DNA from: Acidimicrobiaceae bacterium
GTDB taxonomy: Bacteria > Actinomycetota > Acidimicrobiia > Acidimicrobiales > RAAP-2
Length of the DNA: 41,425 nt
Reading direction: 5' to 3'
Assembly (NCBI GenBank): GCA_003133685.1
Contig: PKYQ01000032.1
Span: forward strand, 1-41,425
Shown: piece after piece, positions 5,347-16,947 of the stretch
Layout: the number at the start of each line of letters is the position of its first letter
How positions within the stretch are numbered: the first letter of the stretch is position 1
Made by a program: the position numbers and the translations under genes
Notes under the pieces: generated by a model
Seen by the model: only the letters and a program-made list of their open reading frames with translations
Told to the model about the DNA's origin: nothing
Database searches by the model: none

Positions 5347-6023
5347 AACTCGGCGTCCTGCTCCCGACGTTTCGAAACGGCGCCGCGGACGCGTTCGCCT
5401 TCGCGGACCGAGCGGTCGACGCTGGCGTCGACGGCCTCTTCGCCTACGACCACCTCTGGCCGATGGGCTCGCCGACGCGGCCGTCGCTCGCGCCATTCCC
5501 ATTGCTCGCGGCGGTGGCGCGACGACACGACGGCGTCGTCGTCGGTCCATTGGTGGCGCGCGTCGGCCTCGTGGGAACGAACCATCTCGTCGAGCAGTAC
5601 CGGACGCTCGAGCGCATAGCCCCGTCGCGCGTGATCTGCGCCCTGGGCTCGGGCGACAAGCTCTCGGCGCCCGAGAACGAGGCTTACGACATTCCGGTGC
5701 GCAGCGCCGACGAACGCCGCGCACTCATGGCCGAGGCGGCGCGCGAATTGAACGACCAGATGCCGATCTGGTTCGGTGGTGGAAACGACGAGACGAATCG
5801 CGTGGCCCGAGAGGTCGGCGCGACGATCAACCTCTGGGACGCGTCGCCACGACGTGTTCGAGAAATGTCGACATCGGGCGACGTGAGTTGGGCCGGACCG
5901 GTGCCGCCCGACCTCGCGGCGACCCTGGACGCGGTGCGCGACGCCGGTGCGACGTGGGCGGTGTTCGCGCCCGACGTCAACGTCGAAGCGCTGCGACAGT
6001 GGCGCGACGCGAACAACGAGTAG
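5343..6023 (+). CDS. Short LLM-class (F420-type) oxidoreductase
   Basis: A luciferase-like TIM-barrel protein, opening MKLGVLLPTF with FAYDHLWP at strand 2, as in F420-dependent LLM enzymes. It has only 226 residues, against 280-350 for most of the family, and the middle barrel segments are shortened: the text passes from RVICALGSGD almost directly to MPIWFGGGNDETNRVA. The frame is intact and the ends look complete, so this is a compact form rather than a clear truncation. It overlaps the glucokinase gene by ATGA. The substrate is unknown. The TnpB element begins just after its stop. Confidence 0.75.
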   Translation: MKLGVLLPTFRNGAADAFAFADRAVDAGVDGLFAYDHLWPMGSPTRPSLAPFPLLAAVARRHDGVVVGPLVARVGLVGTNHLVEQYRTLERIAPSRVICALGSGDKLSAPENEAYDIPVRSADERRALMAEAARELNDQMPIWFGGGNDETNRVAREVGATINLWDASPRRVREMSTSGDVSWAGPVPPDLAATLDAVRDAGATWAVFAPDVNVEALRQWRDANNE

Positions 6024-7606: not shown

Positions 7607-8806
7607 ATGGAATTCCGTCGCGTCAACGGCCTGCCGCCCTACGTCTTCGCGCAGATAAACGGACTGAAGGCCGAGGCGCGCGCCCTCGGTCGCGACGTCA
7701 TCGATTTCGGCTTCGGCAACCCTGACTTACCGAGTCCCGACGTGGCCGTCGCAAAGCTGGCCGAGGCGGCGAACAACCCGCGCAACCATCGCTACAGCGC
7801 CTCGCGCGGCATCCCCAACCTTCGTCTGGCGATGGCGACGCGCTACAAGGCGCTCTTTGACGTCGACCTCGACCCCGACACCGAGATCGTCACGACCATC
7901 GGCGCGAAGGAAGGACTCACGCACCTCATGTGGGTCCTGCTCGGTCCCGGCGACAGCGCACTGGTGCCGAGTCCGAGCTACCCGATCCACTTGGCGGGGC
8001 CGGGCTTCGCCGGCGCGAAGGTCATTACCGTCCCGATGCTCGACCCCGGCGCGACCACGAACGATCCCGGCGATGACTTCTTCGCGGGACTCGTCGAGGC
8101 GTGGGAGAACGCCGAGGTGAAGCCACGGGTGTTGATCTGTTCCTTCCCGCACAACCCGACGAGCGCGTGCGTGGATCTCGCGTTCATGACACGACTGGTC
8201 GACTTCGCGCTCGAACACGAATTGATCGTCTGCCACGACTTCGCCTACGCCGACCTGGGCTTCGACGGGTACAAGCCGCCGTCGATCCTGCAGGTCCCTC
8301 GGGCGAAGGAGTGCTGCGTCGAGCTCTACACGCTCACCAAGTCCTTCTCGATGGCCGGGTGGCGCGTCGGCTTCCTCGTCGGCAACGCCGAGATCGTGGC
8401 CGCGTTGACAAAGTTGAAGAGTTACCTCGACTACGGAACCTTTCAGCCGGTCCAGATCGCGGCCATCGTCGCCATGAATGAAGCAACGGAGTATCCCGAA
8501 CAACTCCGCGTCATTTATCAGTCGAGGCGCGACACGTTGATCGAAGGACTGATTCGCATCGGTTGGGACGTGACCGCGCCACGCGGATCGATGTTCATCT
8601 GGGCGCCGGTCCCCGAGCCGTACCGCGAGATGGGTTCACTGGAGTTCGCGCGGTTCCTCATCGAGTCGGCCGACGTGGCGACGAGTCCCGGCGTCGGATT
8701 TGGCGAGGGCGGCGACGGACACGTCCGTTTTGCGCTGATCGAGAACGAGCTGCGCACGTCCCAGGCGATTCGCAACCTGCGCAAGACGCTCACGAAGCTG
8801 GGCTGA
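7607..8806 (+). CDS. alaC: Aminotransferase, AlaC-type
   Basis: A 399-residue fold-type I PLP enzyme. The sequence closely follows E. coli AlaC (glutamate-pyruvate transaminase) through its length: LPPYVF near the start, DFGFGNPD, HRYSASRGIPNLR, IGAKEGLTHL, PSPSYPIH, and the PLP lysine Lys245 in TLTKSFSMAGWRVGF. The C-terminal GSMFIWAPVPE and SPGVGFGEGGDGHVRFALIE also match. The reaction would be alanine plus 2-oxoglutarate to pyruvate plus glutamate, and the reverse. A broader role in branched or sulfur amino acid synthesis is possible. It is transcribed from its own promoter and converges with the SMP-30 gene. Confidence 0.88.
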   Translation: MEFRRVNGLPPYVFAQINGLKAEARALGRDVIDFGFGNPDLPSPDVAVAKLAEAANNPRNHRYSASRGIPNLRLAMATRYKALFDVDLDPDTEIVTTIGAKEGLTHLMWVLLGPGDSALVPSPSYPIHLAGPGFAGAKVITVPMLDPGATTNDPGDDFFAGLVEAWENAEVKPRVLICSFPHNPTSACVDLAFMTRLVDFALEHELIVCHDFAYADLGFDGYKPPSILQVPRAKECCVELYTLTKSFSMAGWRVGFLVGNAEIVAALTKLKSYLDYGTFQPVQIAAIVAMNEATEYPEQLRVIYQSRRDTLIEGLIRIGWDVTAPRGSMFIWAPVPEPYREMGSLEFARFLIESADVATSPGVGFGEGGDGHVRFALIENELRTSQAIRNLRKTLTKLG

Positions 8807-11349: not shown

Positions 11350-11486
11350 GCATCTTGCGACGAGAAGTGGTCCGACCACAACATCTTGTGGCCGAGGGGG
11401 AAATGAGTAGTAAACTAGTCCTCCCGACTCCGGCGTCGCGAGGGCATGTTCTTAGTGTCGGTTTCGGCAAGAAAAGAGAGATTGAA
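11350..11486 (+). promoter_or_regulatory. Structured 5' leader of nrdJ
   Basis: The leader holds two neighbouring hairpins: GTGGT/ACCAC around 11367-11379 and CACAA/TTGTG around 11377-11390, which would partly compete. A possible GAGGGGG/CCTCCC pairing lies further down (near 11394-11428). A ribosome binding site, AAGAGAG, lies just before ATG 11487. I searched for the B12-box GCCACTG of cobalamin riboswitches and did not find it. A regulatory role is inference from structure and position. Confidence 0.3.
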
Positions 11487-14315
11487 ATGGCTATCGCACC
11501 TCAGCGACTGGGAATTGGCATCCGCCGCTACTTCACGACTGACGACCGTCACCCGTATGACGAGGTCACCTGGGACCGGCGTGACGCGCGGATTTCGAAC
11601 TTCCGCGACGGCTCGGTCGCCTTCGAGCAACTCAACGTCGAGGTTCCCTCCAGTTGGTCGTTCAACGCCACCAACATCCTCGCCCAGAAGTACTTCCGCG
11701 GTACCCTCGGCACCGACGAGCGAGAGACCAGCCTCAAGCAAGTAGCCGACCGCATCGTCGACACCATCACCGCCTGGGGCGTCGAGCGCGACTACTTCGT
11801 CGACGACGAAGAGGCCGAAGCCTTCCGCGCCGAGCTCAAGCACCTCCTGATCACCCAGAAAGCGGCCTTCAACTCACCGGTCTGGTTCAACATCGGCGTG
11901 AAGGGCGTGCCCCAACAGGGCAGTGCCTGCTTCATCCTCTCGGTCGAGGACTCGATGCGTTCGATCCTCAACTGGTACACCGAAGAGGGCATCATCTTCA
12001 AGGGTGGTTCGGGCGCCGGCGTGAACCTCTCCAAGATCCGCTCGAGCGCCGAGATGCTCGAGGGCGGCGGCACCGCGAGCGGTCCCGTCTCGTTCATGCG
12101 CGGGGCCGACGCCTCAGCGGGCACGATCAAGTCCGGTGGCAAGACGCGCCGCGCCGCGAAGATGGTCATCCTCGACGCCGATCACCCGGATATCGAGGAG
12201 TTCATCTGGTGCAAGGCGAATGAGGAGAAGAAGGCGCGCGTCCTTCGCGACAACGGCTTCGACATGGACTTAGACGGCAAGGACATTCACTCCATTCAGT
12301 ACCAGAACGCGAACAACTCGGTGCGCGTCTCTGATGAGTTCATGGACGCGGTGCTGGCCGACGCCGATTGGGACCTGAAGGCCCGCCACGGCGGACGCGC
12401 AGTGCAAACCGTGAAGGCCCGTGAACTCTGGCGCCAGATCGCCCGGGCCGCGTGGGAGTGCGCCGACCCCGGTCTCCAGTTCGACACGACGATCAACAAG
12501 TGGCACACGTCGCCGAATACCGATCGCATCAATGGATCGAACCCCTGCTCGGAGTACATGCACATCGACAACTCGGCGTGCAACCTCGCGAGCATCAACC
12601 TGATGAAGTACCTCCAAGACGACGGCACCTTCGACGTCGACGCCTTCAAGCACTCCATCGAAGTGCTCTTCAGCGCCCAGGAGATCATCGTCGGCGCGGC
12701 GGACTACCCCACCGAGAAGATCGCCGAGAACTCACGCAAGTTCCGCCAGCTCGGCCTGGGCTACGCGAACCTCGGGGCCCTCCTCATGGCCTCGGGCCTG
12801 GCGTATGACTCCGACGAGGGCCGCGCGTGGGCCGGCGCGATCACCGCGCTGATGACCGGTCACGCCTACGCCGTCAGCGCGCGCACCGCCGGACGCATGG
12901 GACCCCACGAGGGATATGAGGAGAACGCCGAGCCGATGCTCGACGTCCTTCGCATGCACCGCGACGCCTCGTACCGAATCGATGAGACGAAGGCGCCGGC
13001 CGAGATCCTCGAAGCGGCCCAGCACTCGTGGGAAGAGGCCGTCGACCTCGGCGCTCGCCACGGCGTGCGTAACGCCCAGGCCACGGTCCTCGCGCCGACC
13101 GGCACCATCGGTCTGTTGATGGACTGCGACACGACCGGCATCGAACCGGACCTCGGACTCGTGAAGTTCAAGAAACTGGTCGGCGGCGGCAACATGGCGA
13201 TTGTCAATCAGACGGTGCCGCGTGCTTTACGCAAGCTCGGCTACACCGAGATGGAGTCCATGGCCATCGAGGCCTACATCGACGAGAACAAGTCGATCGT
13301 CGGGGCGCCGGGCCTCAATCCCGAGCACCTGCCGGTGTTCGCCTGCTCCATGGGTGACAACACGATCCACTACCTCGGCCACGTGAAGATGATGGGGGCC
13401 GTCCAGCCGTTCATCTCCGGCGCGATCTCCAAGACCGTGAACATGCCCGAGGACGCCACCATTGAAGACGTGGCGAACCTGCACATGGACGCCTGGAAGT
13501 TGGGCGTGAAGGCCGTCGCGATCTACCGCGACAACTGCAAGGTCGGTCAACCGCTCTCCACCGCGAAGAAGGACGGTGAGGAGTCATCCTCGTCGGTCAC
13601 CGCGACGGACTCGGTAGCGGCTGAACTGTTTACGCGCATTGAGCTGCTCGAGGCGGCGTTGGAAGTCGCGAAGTCCGAGGGTCAGCACATCCATCTCAAA
13701 GCCATGCGAGAGCGCATGCCGCGCCGTCGAAAGTCAACGACGTTCGCCTTTCGCGTCGCGGACTGCGAGGGCTACGTCACGGTCGGTGAGTACGAGGATG
13801 GTCGACCCGGAGAAGTGTTCATCAAGGTTTCGAAACAAGGTTCGACGTTGGCCGGCATCATGGATGCGTTCTCGATCTCCATCAGCCTCGGACTCCAGCA
13901 CGGCGTGCCGTTGGCGACCTACGTGCGCAAGTACATCAACATGAAATTCGAGCCGTCGGGCATGACCGATGACGCCGATTTGCGCATCGCGACGTCGCTC
14001 GTGGACTACATCTTCCGCCGCCTGGCGCTCGACCACTTAAGCCTGAGCGAGCGCGAGGAGTTGGGCGTGCTCTCGACGAGCGAGCGTATTCAGCCCACGC
14101 TGCCCGAGGTCGCGGAGCAGGCGACGCCGACGGTGAACGTGAGCGTGCAGCCGACACTCGTGGACTTGAGCGAGAAGCCGGCCGAGCAGTCCAAGTTGCT
14201 GAGTCGCGGCCAACAGCGTGACGCGCCGATGTGTTACCAGTGTGGCAACGCCATGCAGCGTGCCGGTTCGTGCTACGTGTGCTCGAGTTGCGGAGCGACG
14301 AGCGGCTGCTCTTAA
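11487..14315 (+). CDS. nrdJ: Adenosylcobalamin-dependent ribonucleotide reductase (class II)
   Basis: The frame opens at 11355, but ATG 11487 has a good ribosome binding site and gives 942 residues, normal for NrdJ. The enzyme reduces ribonucleotides to deoxyribonucleotides with a radical made from coenzyme B12, so it needs no oxygen and no R2 subunit. Visible: Cys148 in GSACFIL, one of the redox-active pair; NPCSEY with Cys354, the thiyl radical site region; the phosphate loop APTGTIGLLMDCDTTG; and a C-terminal Cys-rich tail (CYQCGNAM then CYVCSSCG, ending SGCS), which re-reduces the active site or binds zinc. No nrdAB or nrdR is in the window. Confidence 0.96.
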   Translation: MAIAPQRLGIGIRRYFTTDDRHPYDEVTWDRRDARISNFRDGSVAFEQLNVEVPSSWSFNATNILAQKYFRGTLGTDERETSLKQVADRIVDTITAWGVERDYFVDDEEAEAFRAELKHLLITQKAAFNSPVWFNIGVKGVPQQGSACFILSVEDSMRSILNWYTEEGIIFKGGSGAGVNLSKIRSSAEMLEGGGTASGPVSFMRGADASAGTIKSGGKTRRAAKMVILDADHPDIEEFIWCKANEEKKARVLRDNGFDMDLDGKDIHSIQYQNANNSVRVSDEFMDAVLADADWDLKARHGGRAVQTVKARELWRQIARAAWECADPGLQFDTTINKWHTSPNTDRINGSNPCSEYMHIDNSACNLASINLMKYLQDDGTFDVDAFKHSIEVLFSAQEIIVGAADYPTEKIAENSRKFRQLGLGYANLGALLMASGLAYDSDEGRAWAGAITALMTGHAYAVSARTAGRMGPHEGYEENAEPMLDVLRMHRDASYRIDETKAPAEILEAAQHSWEEAVDLGARHGVRNAQATVLAPTGTIGLLMDCDTTGIEPDLGLVKFKKLVGGGNMAIVNQTVPRALRKLGYTEMESMAIEAYIDENKSIVGAPGLNPEHLPVFACSMGDNTIHYLGHVKMMGAVQPFISGAISKTVNMPEDATIEDVANLHMDAWKLGVKAVAIYRDNCKVGQPLSTAKKDGEESSSSVTATDSVAAELFTRIELLEAALEVAKSEGQHIHLKAMRERMPRRRKSTTFAFRVADCEGYVTVGEYEDGRPGEVFIKVSKQGSTLAGIMDAFSISISLGLQHGVPLATYVRKYINMKFEPSGMTDDADLRIATSLVDYIFRRLALDHLSLSEREELGVLSTSERIQPTLPEVAEQATPTVNVSVQPTLVDLSEKPAEQSKLLSRGQQRDAPMCYQCGNAMQRAGSCYVCSSCGATSGCS

Positions 14316-14320
14316 TGTCA

Positions 14321-14406
14321 AGTTGCACTCGAACTTCAGTAGTTCCGCATCGCTCGTGCAGTCGAGTTGCATCTGAACTTCAGTGGAGTTCTATCTGAAC
14401 GTCAGT
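14321..14406. repeat. 22-bp-period repeat array (four units)
   Basis: Units of about 20 bases begin at 14321, 14343, 14365 and 14387, exactly 22 bases apart. Units 1 and 3 match at 17 of 20 positions, as do units 3 and 4. Unit 2 is degenerate, with about 10 of 20. The core is CTGAACTTCAG, a dyad with CTGAA and TTCAG arms around one central base. The array begins six bases after the nrdJ stop. It looks iteron-like or like a protein-binding array. No replication gene is nearby. Confidence 0.6.
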
Positions 14407-14652
14407 ACGCAAGCGTGCAAAGAATTGTGACGTACGGCGCTGACTTTCCAAAATTGCCGCCCAGGGAGGCAGCACGGCTGAAGGGGACGATGCGCGCTGG
14501 CTTCCTGACCGTGCTTACGGATTTCATCGTCTTCGGGTTCTTCGTTCTTCAGTGGATCCAGATCGTTGCCCAGCGAAGGACCCGATTGACGAGGGAAAAC
14601 GGGACCAGAGGAATTCGAGCCTCCGAGAGCTCATTCGTACCACGGTAGTTCG
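14407..14652. other. Intergenic stretch without a recognised gene
   Basis: Together with the repeat array, this makes about 350 bases between nrdJ and the antitoxin gene. A TTG-start frame runs 14367-14648, with a hydrophobic patch (FIVFGFFVLQWIQIV), but it begins inside the repeat array. It has no ribosome binding site and resembles no family I know. I regard it as probably non-coding or a decayed remnant. Confidence 0.4.
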
Positions 14653-14662
14653 TACTCGAGTA
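14653..14662. promoter_or_regulatory. Palindromic operator candidate of vapBC
   Basis: A perfect 10-base palindrome, TACTCGAGTA, ends ten bases before the antitoxin ATG at 14673. CGTAC occurs twice in tandem nearby (14636-14640 and 14651-14655). Type II antitoxins with ribbon-helix-helix domains normally bind such sites to repress their own operon. Confidence 0.45.
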
Positions 14663-14672
14663 AGATTGGCTT

Positions 14673-15113
14673 ATGACGGTTGACAAGATGAGTGTTTCAT
14701 TGGCTCCATCACTGAGCAGTGCGGTGCGTGACGCAGCCGAGCAATCTGGCGAAACTCTCTCCGGCTGGCTAGCAGACGCCGCCCAGACGAAGCTGCGTGC
14801 ACGGGCACTCGACGAATTCCTTGACGTGTGGGAAAACGAGAACGGGGCCATCACGGAGGAAGAACTTCGAGATGCTGCTTCCAGGCTCGGCCCCGTTGAT
14901 TCAACGACCGATAGCTGGTTCAGTTTTGTTAAGGTCACCGCTCTGGGAGGGAGCCACGATGAGCTCATCTCAACGATAACTCGGATCATCGAAGGTGGGC
15001 ACTCGGTTCTTGTTCCAGAACAAGACGTGCCTGACATATCGAGGTTGGTGAAGGCCGGCGAACGCATTTCGTTTGAAAAGGCGGAAGTTCGAGTGAGTCT
15101 TCCGGCCGAATGA
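14673..15113 (+). CDS. VapB-like antitoxin with C-terminal extension
   Basis: A 146-residue protein. Residues 5-43 look like a ribbon-helix-helix DNA-binding domain (MSVSLAPSLSSAVRDAAEQS, then GWLADAAQTKLR). The helix ARALDEFLDVWENENG followed by TEEELRDA (44-68) matches the usual toxin-wrapping tail, where such antitoxins normally end at 75-90 residues. Here about 70 further residues follow (76-146), with a mixed alpha/beta pattern that I do not recognise. The stop overlaps the PIN toxin start by ATGA. The antitoxin role is inferred from the fold and the toxin next door. Confidence 0.75.
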   Translation: MTVDKMSVSLAPSLSSAVRDAAEQSGETLSGWLADAAQTKLRARALDEFLDVWENENGAITEEELRDAASRLGPVDSTTDSWFSFVKVTALGGSHDELISTITRIIEGGHSVLVPEQDVPDISRLVKAGERISFEKAEVRVSLPAE

Positions 15114-15493
15114 CCGCCATGATTTTGGATGCTGGCGCGTTCATAGCTATTGGGCGCAATGACCGGAGCACGGTAGCTCTTTTGAAGGCGGCCCAGAAGA
15201 ACTCACTTTCACTTCGAAGTAATGGCGCTGTGGTCGCAGAAGTTTGGCGAGGTGGGTCGGGAAACCAAGTCCCCTTGGCTCGCCTGCTCGCCGCCGTGGA
15301 ACTGCTACCTGTGGATGGTGATTTGGGGCGATCCGCAGGCGTCCTTATCCGAGATGCCGGTGGTGGAAGTGCCATTGACGCCACTGTCGTCACCATCGCC
15401 AGGGAAGGAGATCAGATAGTTACAAGTGACCAGAGTGACATTCAGGCGCTGGTCAACTCTTCTGGTCGACGCATCAGAATCATCTCTTGCTAG
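15110..15493 (+). CDS. PIN-domain ribonuclease toxin (VapC-like)
   Basis: A 127-residue single PIN domain. The acidic metal-binding residues are in place: Asp7 (ILDAGAF), Glu44 (VVAEVWRGG), Asp90 (AIDATVV), and Asp107/Asp110 (TSDQSD). VapC toxins cut RNA, often tRNA or rRNA, with Mg2+ or Mn2+, and are held inactive by the antitoxin encoded upstream. The ATGA overlap with the antitoxin gene gives coupled translation. Nothing suggests inactivation. The RNA target cannot be deduced from the sequence. Confidence 0.88.
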   Translation: MTAMILDAGAFIAIGRNDRSTVALLKAAQKNSLSLRSNGAVVAEVWRGGSGNQVPLARLLAAVELLPVDGDLGRSAGVLIRDAGGGSAIDATVVTIAREGDQIVTSDQSDIQALVNSSGRRIRIISC

Positions 15494-15542
15494 TTCTGAG
15501 TTGCGGTGCACTTGGACTACATCCCGTACGTAACATCACACT

Positions 15543-15565
15543 TATATACATGTGAACTGTATATA
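15543..15565. promoter_or_regulatory. PadR operator with overlapping -10
   Basis: A perfect inverted repeat, TATATAC (15543-15549) and GTATATA (15559-15565), has a 9-base spacer and ends eight bases before the PadR ATG. A -10-like TATACT (15562-15567) overlaps the right arm, and its expected transcription start falls on the ATG. The site would let PadR repress its own operon. Confidence 0.6.
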
Positions 15566-15573
15566 CTGCTCAC

Positions 15574-15903
15574 ATGATTAAAGAGATGAGAGAACCTACA
15601 TTTCTTGTGCTAGCGACTTTGGCCGAGGGCAAGAGACACGGGTACGCGATTATTCAAGGGGTGGCGTCGCTTTCTGAGGGCGAAGTGGAACTCAAGGCGG
15701 GAACGCTCTACGCCATGTTGGACCGCTTGACGTTCGACGGCGTCATTGAATCGGTGGGCGAGGAGATCGTCGACGGACGACTTCGCCGTTACTACGAGCT
15801 GACGTCTGAAGGCACAACACTGCTCAGCGAAGAGTCCAAACGTCGTGTCAAAGTTTCCAATATTGCGTTACGTCGACTTCGGTTCGTGGGAGGAATCGCA
15901 TGA
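15574..15903 (+). CDS. PadR-family transcriptional regulator
   Basis: A 109-residue winged-helix protein of the short PadR class. It has the family opening (EPTFLVLATLAEGKRHGYAI), the recognition-helix region LKAGTLYAMLDRLTFDGVIE, and the wing with RRYYELTSEG. The C-terminal helix is short. PadR proteins usually repress a linked transporter or membrane-protein operon and release DNA on binding a drug or other ligand. The operator at 15543-15565 supports self-control. It overlaps the membrane-protein gene by ATGA, so the two are coupled. Confidence 0.9.
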   Translation: MIKEMREPTFLVLATLAEGKRHGYAIIQGVASLSEGEVELKAGTLYAMLDRLTFDGVIESVGEEIVDGRLRRYYELTSEGTTLLSEESKRRVKVSNIALRRLRFVGGIA

Positions 15904-16862
15904 CCCAAAACCTCGCTCGTTCACGGAGACTCTTGAGTTTCTATCCCAAGGCGTACCGCGAAGAACGCGGAGAAGAGATCGTCGCCACTTTGCAAGACGC
16001 TGCCGAAGCTCGCGTTCCTCGTGCCTCGCTCAGCGACCAGATCAGCGTGGCGCTGTACGGAGTGCGCATTCGGATGGGTCTGACCAGTGAAACCATGTTT
16101 GGCAAGGCATTGGATATTGCCGCGATCCCCGGACTCGTGATGGGAGCATTTTTTGGTGTGTATCTTTTAATCTCGGGCGACTTGCCGGTGGTGAGTTCAC
16201 GATTCTTCTATCCGCACTTCGGACCGTTCCTCACGGCAGGACCTCTGTTCTATCTGGTCTGGATTCTGGGCGTCGTGGTGGTCTTTGAGTGGCCGCAGTA
16301 CCGGCGACGTATTGCCGGCGTGTGCATGACACTTACGATCGTGGGCGAGCTACTCGCCAAACTCGCTCATCGCAATCCAAACATTTGGGACATTGCCATA
16401 CTGGTGAGTCTCGGCCTTCCCAGCCTCCTTGCCCCGGACGTGTACGTCACGCGACGCAGGGTCATACCCAGTTTGAGCGTTGGTCTCGCTACGTTCGCGA
16501 CCTTGTTTTTCGTTACCGCTTCGAGTGTCAATCCCAGATTTTTCAATTCCTTTTATTGGTCTGGGACGTACGAGATCGTTAATCGCCAGCCTTACGTTGA
16601 CGTATTACTACTTGCACTGTTTGTACTGCTGTGGATTACCAAGCGACGCGAAGCCGCCAGTGCCGCACTGATTCTCAGCAGTCCCTGGATAATCGTTGGC
16701 GTCGCGTATCCAATATCCCTCAAATATTTGCAAGTGGACACTCTGAATGTGATCGCCTTAATTGCATGGGCCGTGGGCATGGCACTCATCGTGACGACGA
16801 GTCGTTACCGTCCGCGAACTCCTGGATCAGTTGAACTGTCCACTTTGAATTCCGGATCATGA
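15900..16862 (+). CDS. Polytopic membrane protein paired with PadR
   Basis: A 320-residue protein. The cytoplasmic N-terminus carries FYPKAYREERGEEIVATL (14-31), the short prefix often seen on actinobacterial membrane proteins encoded with PadR regulators. About seven or eight hydrophobic helices follow from residue 70 on (for example GLVMGAFFGVYLLISG, FYLVWILGVVVVF, NVIALIAWAVGMALIV). No transport or enzyme motif is visible. It may be the target whose level PadR controls. Function unknown. Confidence 0.75.
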   Translation: MTQNLARSRRLLSFYPKAYREERGEEIVATLQDAAEARVPRASLSDQISVALYGVRIRMGLTSETMFGKALDIAAIPGLVMGAFFGVYLLISGDLPVVSSRFFYPHFGPFLTAGPLFYLVWILGVVVVFEWPQYRRRIAGVCMTLTIVGELLAKLAHRNPNIWDIAILVSLGLPSLLAPDVYVTRRRVIPSLSVGLATFATLFFVTASSVNPRFFNSFYWSGTYEIVNRQPYVDVLLLALFVLLWITKRREAASAALILSSPWIIVGVAYPISLKYLQVDTLNVIALIAWAVGMALIVTTSRYRPRTPGSVELSTLNSGS

Positions 16863-16947
16863 TCCAACGGACGCGGATGGAGGCATTGAGATTCGTTTTC
16901 CTGGTTGCTTCTTCGGCGACTTCTGCTGCCGGCGTCAGGAGTTCAGA

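Follow-up and report, generated by a model that had tools for sequence, protein, structure and literature searches.

A 22-bp repeat array directly behind nrdJ in an Acidimicrobiaceae genome is very probably the end of a transposase-less cassette

Introduction

The gene for the adenosylcobalamin-dependent ribonucleotide reductase of an Acidimicrobiaceae bacterium (assembly GCA_003133685.1) is followed directly by an array of four 22-bp units, and the question raised by this locus is what such an array is for. A preliminary description, made from the letters of the window (the whole stretch of 41,425 nucleotides analysed here, contig PKYQ01000032.1), treated the units as a dyad array in a gap without genes, noted that a period of two helical turns would suit cooperative protein binding on one face of the DNA, and offered regulation, chromosome organisation or a mobile-element relic as its function. 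The last of these three proves right. We conclude that the array is very probably the nrdJ-proximal end of a cargo transposon without a transposase, hereafter a cassette, which spans 14316-15540 and is inserted immediately behind the nrdJ stop codon.

In the text below, numbers beginning with L denote loci and numbers beginning with G denote genomes of the comparison.

Structure of the array

The 22-bp period is borne out by comparing the array (14316-14409) with itself, as identity at a lag of 22 reaches 39/72, compared with 10-14 of 70-74 at lags of 20, 21, 23 and 24, and Tandem Repeats Finder likewise returns a period of 22 (2.2 copies, 14359-14406). A lag-22 identity of 39 is reached at 7 of 41,331 start positions in the window, the array's own overlap counted in, and the best 26-bp stretch of the array has 22/26 identities, where the maximum elsewhere in the window is 16. 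The array begins with TGTCA at the first base past the stop codon and comprises three good units and one weak one, unit 2 (Table 1). The step of 22 bases thus agrees with the preliminary description, and its unit starts (14321, 14343, 14365 and 14387) are to be moved one base later, into the frame of the family (14322, 14344, 14366 and 14388). The core that all four units were said to share, CTGAACTTCAG, is found in the three good units and in part in unit 2; it is exact only at 14373, with one mismatch at 14395 and two at 14329.

The 11-mer core by itself is not enriched. With up to two mismatches it has 8 matches in the window against 7.56 expected, and it occurs exactly at 2 places in the bacterium's own genome, equal to the reversed control, so the signal is carried by spacing and terminus and not by the 11-mer. 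The repeat unit read from the ends of relatives is directional, GTTGCAYYCGAACTTCAGTGGA, and the dyad is therefore a local accident and no feature of the family. The apparent gap consists of 94 bp that form one terminus of an element whose cargo is a toxin-antitoxin-like pair.

Table 1. Features of the nrdJ end, the first element and the neighbouring cassette in the window.
Feature	Position	Strand	Basis or remark
nrdJ, adenosylcobalamin-dependent class II ribonucleotide reductase	11355..14315	+	Pfam PF02867/PF08471/PF12637; NCBIfam NF005122, 1437.6 bits; ORF start as listed
Left target-duplication copy CTTAA, holds nrdJ stop TAA	14311..14315	+	duplication tested on 18 relatives
Left end, nrdJ-proximal, type A	14316..14409	+	TGTCAA, then four 22-bp units; transposon-like
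Unit 1, GTTGCACTCGAACTTCAGTAGT	14322..14343	+	profile score 28.9
Unit 2, degenerate, TCCGCATCGCTCGTGCAGTCGA	14344..14365	+	under profile threshold; in register; part of core only
Unit 3, GTTGCATCTGAACTTCAGTGGA	14366..14387	+	profile score 32.8
Unit 4, GTTCTATCTGAACGTCAGTACG	14388..14409	+	profile score 19.9
Putative antitoxin (by position), small protein directly upstream of PIN protein	14673..15113	+	no Pfam match; sub-cut-off NCBIfam match
PIN-domain protein, VapC-like toxin candidate	15110..15493	+	PF01850, 24.3 bits, cut-off 23.6
Decayed right (type B) end of first element, ending ...AACATCACA	15500..15540	-	aligned with B end of same cassette in L070
Right target-duplication copy CTTAT, 4/5 identical to left	15541..15545	+	flank comparison
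Second cassette remnant, ends not recognised	15546..16869	+	91% over 1326 bp to second cassette behind nrdJ in L070
PadR-like regulator, second cassette	15574-15903	+	PF03551
Membrane protein (by eye), second cassette	15900-16862	+	by eye

Ends and cassettes in related genomes

In relatives the left end begins TGTCAAGTTGCA and continues with 22-23-bp units, and it is faced, at a distance of about 0.8-4.3 kb, by an end of another type, B (GTTGCATCCGAGATGCAGTCCG, which often has two units). The elements so delimited measure about 0.6-4.3 kb and often stand in tandem, adjoining ones meeting back-to-back as ACA, 5 or 6 bp and TGT. The preliminary description had taken absence of the motif from relatives as the mark of a local duplication; the end pattern is matched 47 times, ends of either type and some inner units being counted, and these matches fall in 19 of the 99 genus genomes, compared with 1 match for a reversed control pattern. 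In several genomes the first 25-28 bp of the ends show full or almost full identity. An order-level sample contains the pattern in 4 of 397 genomes, two of the 4 being from the genus, and five contigs with exact end matches in a named collection are Acidimicrobiales/Acidimicrobiaceae MAGs whose isolate names include palsa or fen in four cases and Chersky in one.

A good type B end is present in G430, from another genus of the same family, and a weaker one in G291, and no autonomous element was recognised on the contigs bearing these two ends. Adjoining the type B-like end in G291 is an AAA ATPase gene (by eye), which is preceded by tandem repeats of ~33 bp (L162:13430-13520). Viral contigs gave 0 matches for four end patterns, and plasmids gave none, bar one weak Arthrobacter match within a gene.

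The insertion point behind nrdJ

The last nrdJ codons and the stop are the insertion target. The C terminus of NrdJ is nearly invariant (...GSCYVCSSCGATSGCS, then the stop), which makes the 3' end of its gene a dependable target. A cassette end lies exactly at +0, the first base past the stop, in 40 of 82 distinct nrdJ 3' ends collected for the genus, a fraction that is not a prevalence because the sample is biased, many loci having been collected on account of a match. The 82 include L027, L029 and L030 from other families of the order, where there is no such end. Three repeat families are represented among the 40, with type A the closest for 19, type A' (TGTCAAGTGACTCCGAGATTTCAGT) for 4 and type C (TGTGAACTCTCACCAAGTGACA) for 17, all being within 11 mismatches of 28-29, where the next best has 16; L233 and L270, by eye possibly slightly shifted members, are counted among the 42 without an end. 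When right-type ends are allowed too, 39/40 are nearest to A, A' or C, which are left-type ends, and L263 is nearest to B'. TGT is kept exactly in 31/40. Scoring at offsets from -30 to +199 gave 40 ends at 0, 22 at +23 and 18 at +45, the latter two peaks being inner units of the ends, and at most 3 at any other offset printed.

Type C ends, searched with a 45-base pattern, have 9 matches in 8/99 genomes, 8 of them directly behind nrdJ and 1 located 0.6 kb further on in the same contig and array. Type A ends are less strict, as G029, G009 and G008 have some on contigs that lack nrdJ, and in G027 one lies about 6 kb downstream of an nrdJ that has no insert at +0. A flank of ~25 bp (TGGAATAT...ACTCCGCCAGTA) is common to three type A ends off nrdJ (L069:449, L071:7937 and L081:591) and is perhaps a second target. 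When the end types are placed as labels on an nrdJ tree of 53 rows, the label changes 16 times, with 3 the least possible and 25.5 the shuffled mean, which describes a distribution that is clustered but patchy. In the papers found, nrdJ was not met as an insertion site, and the main text of a survey of Tn7-like elements (PMC8649781) does not contain 'nrd'.

Target duplications and empty sites

We compared the last five bases of nrdJ with the five bases behind the first element at 18 loci with a recognisable right end, using a fixed rule that was set after the outcome of a 15-pair version (p=0.006) in which inner units had at times been taken as ends. Loci without a right end over the threshold, the window among them, stand outside this test. 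The flanks are identical at 73/90 positions (shuffled mean 58.35, p=6e-5) and the duplication is exact in 8/18 first elements (p=3.4e-4), p values from a shuffling that ignores kinship among related genomes. The exact duplications are GTTGA in L072, L075, L077 and L213, CGTGA in L021, L209 and L277, and GCTGA in L286. The 10/18 that are inexact agree at four of five bases in L070, L073, L278 and L285, at three in L041, L120 and L248, each with CGTAA/CCTGA, and in L076 and L208, and at two in L281.

Empty sites were sought by comparing 13 flanks behind elements with 36 loci whose nrdJ lacks such an end; two flanks matched (L075 and L278) and 11/13 had no match among these 36 loci. In L075, the sequence that follows the 3.5-kb element falls on the same diagonal as the sequence immediately after nrdJ in five genomes (six loci, of which L246 and L256 belong to one genome), with E values from 4.7e-9 at best to 2.5e-4 at weakest and with alignments that start at base 4 in G110, base 1 in G086 and bases 64, 68 and 72 in G079, G080 and G109, respectively. 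The flank of L278 matches L245 at 78% over 451 bp, after ~140 bp that resemble a third left end. A further comparison is offered by L070 and L072, where a strong hairpin (by eye) stands ~5.4 kb away, behind the last cassette, and resembles the hairpins that follow some empty nrdJ genes at a short distance, as in L025.

Cargo of the window copy and of its relatives

The first element of the window is a transposon-like cassette of ~1.2 kb with a VapBC-like pair as its cargo (Table 1), the first start codon of which lies about 260 bp from the end of the array. G074 (L070) likewise has this toxin-antitoxin-like cassette in first place behind nrdJ, at 83.9% identity in an alignment that takes in the nrdJ end, and there the B end is recognisable; the right end of the window copy is missed by the right-end search alone and is known through this relative. 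Compared with L070, ~320 bp are missing at the start of the second cassette. The window copy looks old, because its own right end and the ends of the neighbouring cassette are decayed. Just upstream of the toxin-antitoxin-like pair, a palindrome around TACTCGAGTA (14650-14665) is a candidate operator.

Cassettes of relatives carry peptidase S9, Fic, a PolX-like polymerase, and ParA-like and AAA ATPases, as well as a ParE/RelE-like toxin (below cut-off) and several proteins without a match. When ten cargo proteins were submitted to PADLOC, one Fic protein matched the SoFic model strongly and one protein gave a weak match. No intact transposase was seen in the delimited or listed cassettes, whose ORFs were mostly judged by eye. 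In G029, the A' end at nrdJ is followed first by a gene for a serine recombinase of 476 aa (L210:1130-2557), and no serine recombinase was recognised directly behind the A' ends of L211 and L287.

Search for the moving enzyme

TniQ exceeded its cut-off in 0/99 genomes of the genus, and Mu_transpos_C was found in 4/99, none of which is among the 19 with A/B ends. Matches to rve are absent from 3/19 A/B genomes and 4/18 C genomes, so in some genomes such a resident enzyme is either absent or missing from the assembly. An IstB search of 25 genomes returned strong matches (>80 bits) in 9/19 A/B genomes, with no matching ends near the IstB loci inspected and no istA or istB inside delimited cassettes. 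Inspection of the fetched transposase loci, mostly with 1.5 kb on each side and covering part of the rve and transposase matches, revealed no transposase with matching ends and no autonomous copy.

ORFs from the transposase loci (96 and 36 queries) were also compared with the cassette loci by tblastn. This recovered an IS21 element beside a truncated A end in L080, its own end being different, and, in L212, a gene judged by eye to be IS30-like, which lies at the end of a contig and within 1.1-2.1 kb of nrdJ. Partial matches lie in L076, outside the delimited elements, and in L078, where the element is not delimited. Matches of 20-51 residues in L081 fall inside a type A element of G027 and are a possible IS remnant, and one unassigned ORF gives short matches of 37-65 residues in L069, L074 and L119.

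Comparison with known systems

Tn7 inserts about 25 bp behind glmS. The cassettes differ from Tn7-like elements in standing at +0 of nrdJ, in measuring about 0.6-4.3 kb, often in tandem, and in that no tns or tniQ genes were recognised within them. They resemble such elements in their 5-bp duplication (p=6e-5, 8/18 exact) and in lying in one orientation behind the 3' end of a conserved gene that is left unbroken, 39/40 being left-type towards nrdJ, with some type A ends elsewhere. TGT...ACA ends and arrays of ~22-bp sites at each end are a further likeness, for the cassettes one of sequence layout, and arrays of TnsB sites are given as a general Tn7-like feature in PMC8649781.

According to passages of PMC10122671, each repeat in the ends of IS21 contains a pair of conserved blocks spaced by about 10 bp, or one helical turn, and is bound by two helix-turn-helix domains of IstA in a complex that resembles those of Tn7 and Mu. 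The cassettes share with IS21 the TGT(C)/TG...CA ends and the multiple ~22-bp repeats with two blocks one turn apart, and the tails of IS21 copies in the genus have the same layout. They differ in that delimited cassettes contain no istA/istB and that the repeats of the inspected IS21 copies of the genus are different in sequence; a strict preference for site and orientation is not known for IS21. The cassettes can be filed under neither Tn7-like elements nor IS21 because the defining genes are missing.

In mobile insertion cassettes (MICs), passenger genes but no transposase lie between ends that an autonomous IS also has. The present cassettes likewise have passenger genes between IS-type ends, no intact transposase and, presumably, movement in trans; they differ in that no parent IS with the same ends was found here, in their site-specific tandem arrays and in the several end families at one site. 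Integrons also have tandem small cassettes, toxin-antitoxin cargo and one preferred site, as is seen here, whereas their cassettes have single attC sites and those behind nrdJ are two-ended, with target duplications and multi-unit ends.

Alternative explanations

The place of the array between nrdJ and a toxin-antitoxin-like pair, together with its 22-bp phasing, could speak for an operator, in which four sites two helical turns apart would bind a cooperative regulator of either. We consider this very unlikely, since similar ends accompany many different cargos, no end is found at about half of nrdJ ends (42/82, two of these possibly shifted members), and the array lies ~260 bp from the start codon of the cargo, with the separate palindrome at 14650-14665 closer. 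Facing ends with target duplications and empty sites are not what an operator array would be expected to have, and on these grounds it was rejected and the regulation or chromosome organisation offered in the preliminary description is not favoured. The phased protein binding proposed there is plausible for a TnsB/IstA-like transposase rather than for a regulator or chromosome organiser. The position directly after a stop codon might also fit a transcription terminator or REP-like element of nrdJ, which is more improbable still: the RNA folds no better than shuffled sequence (z -0.34), no terminator-like site is present in 14200-15200, and in L070 and L072 the strong hairpin (by eye) stands behind the whole cassette array. 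The folding and the terminator search, both negative, led us to reject it. Least probable of all, to the point of being negligible, is a local tandem duplication without function; the degenerate unit 2 and the unenriched 11-mer in window and genome would be in keeping with it, and it is refuted by conservation in relatives, with ends near-identical over the first 25-28 bp in several genomes and 47 matches in 19/99 genomes compared with 1 for the control.

The least improbable of the alternatives, which we nevertheless regard as unlikely, is that a serine or tyrosine recombinase, acting in an integron- or integrase-like manner, moves the cassettes and that the 5-bp repeats are recombination cores instead of target duplications. 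Tandem cassettes at one site do recall integrons, and in G029 (L210) the A' end is followed first by the gene of a 476-aa serine recombinase. Partial, decayed second nrdJ 3' ends ~2.6 kb downstream (G109:C26:23395-23658 and G079:C176:218-418) also count in its favour and might be traces of an integrase-type element that used this gene end. However, the 5-bp flank varies with the nrdJ sequence at the site (CGTGA, GTTGA, GCTGA or CGTAA) and has no one fixed core, the ends are TGT...ACA with multi-unit arrays, and no recombinase was recognised among the other listed cassette ORFs, most of which were judged by eye.

Proposed mechanism and significance

Returning to the reading of the array as the end of a transposase-less cassette, we infer from the likeness to known elements that the system would work by transposition of the Tn7/IS21 kind, with the enzyme supplied in trans. 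Each 22-bp unit would then be bound by a DDE transposase of the TnsB/IstA kind through its two-part DNA-binding region, and either this enzyme, acting in trans, or a partner would recognise the conserved 3' end of nrdJ. Insertion right after the stop, with the stop itself inside the duplication, would make the site harmless, and new cassettes may enter beside nrdJ so that older ones are pushed outward.

A more specific hypothesis, which we put forward tentatively and hold to be somewhat less than evenly probable, is that of dedicated cassette capture. A DDE transposase specific for site and orientation, with its gene apart from the cassettes or on rare autonomous elements, would add cargo modules serially behind the nrdJ stop, and its diverged A, A' and C versions would compete for the site in one genus. 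If such a dedicated enzyme exists, the result would be an array like that of an integron but based on transposition, where integrons use tyrosine recombination. Small, transposase-free tandem modules, many of which enter at one base pair behind an essential-type gene, would indicate that ends of the Tn7/IS21 type are able to sustain cassette arrays as integrons do. With their ends as markers, cargo (toxin-antitoxin, Fic, ATPases and peptidases) is easily delimited in uncultured Acidimicrobiales, and nrdJ as a safe insertion site poses a testable question, namely which enzyme recognises its end. No description of such cassettes was found in the open PMC literature, in part of which titles and the starts of abstracts were covered.

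Other cassette-like structures

In L073 (at 7729) and L083 (at 7022), the left end contains A-type units and, straight after them, a complete A'-type terminus, an arrangement that insertion of one end family into the other, or fusion of the two, might produce. The bacterium's own genome has a second type B end, at 7844 on the minus strand of L119:5683-9107 (G000:C1), behind a helicase gene (by eye). This region is rich in toxin-antitoxin genes, with MazF-like, Fic-like and PIN-like ORFs, all judged by eye, and degenerate A-like units lie near 5720-5780 of the same locus.
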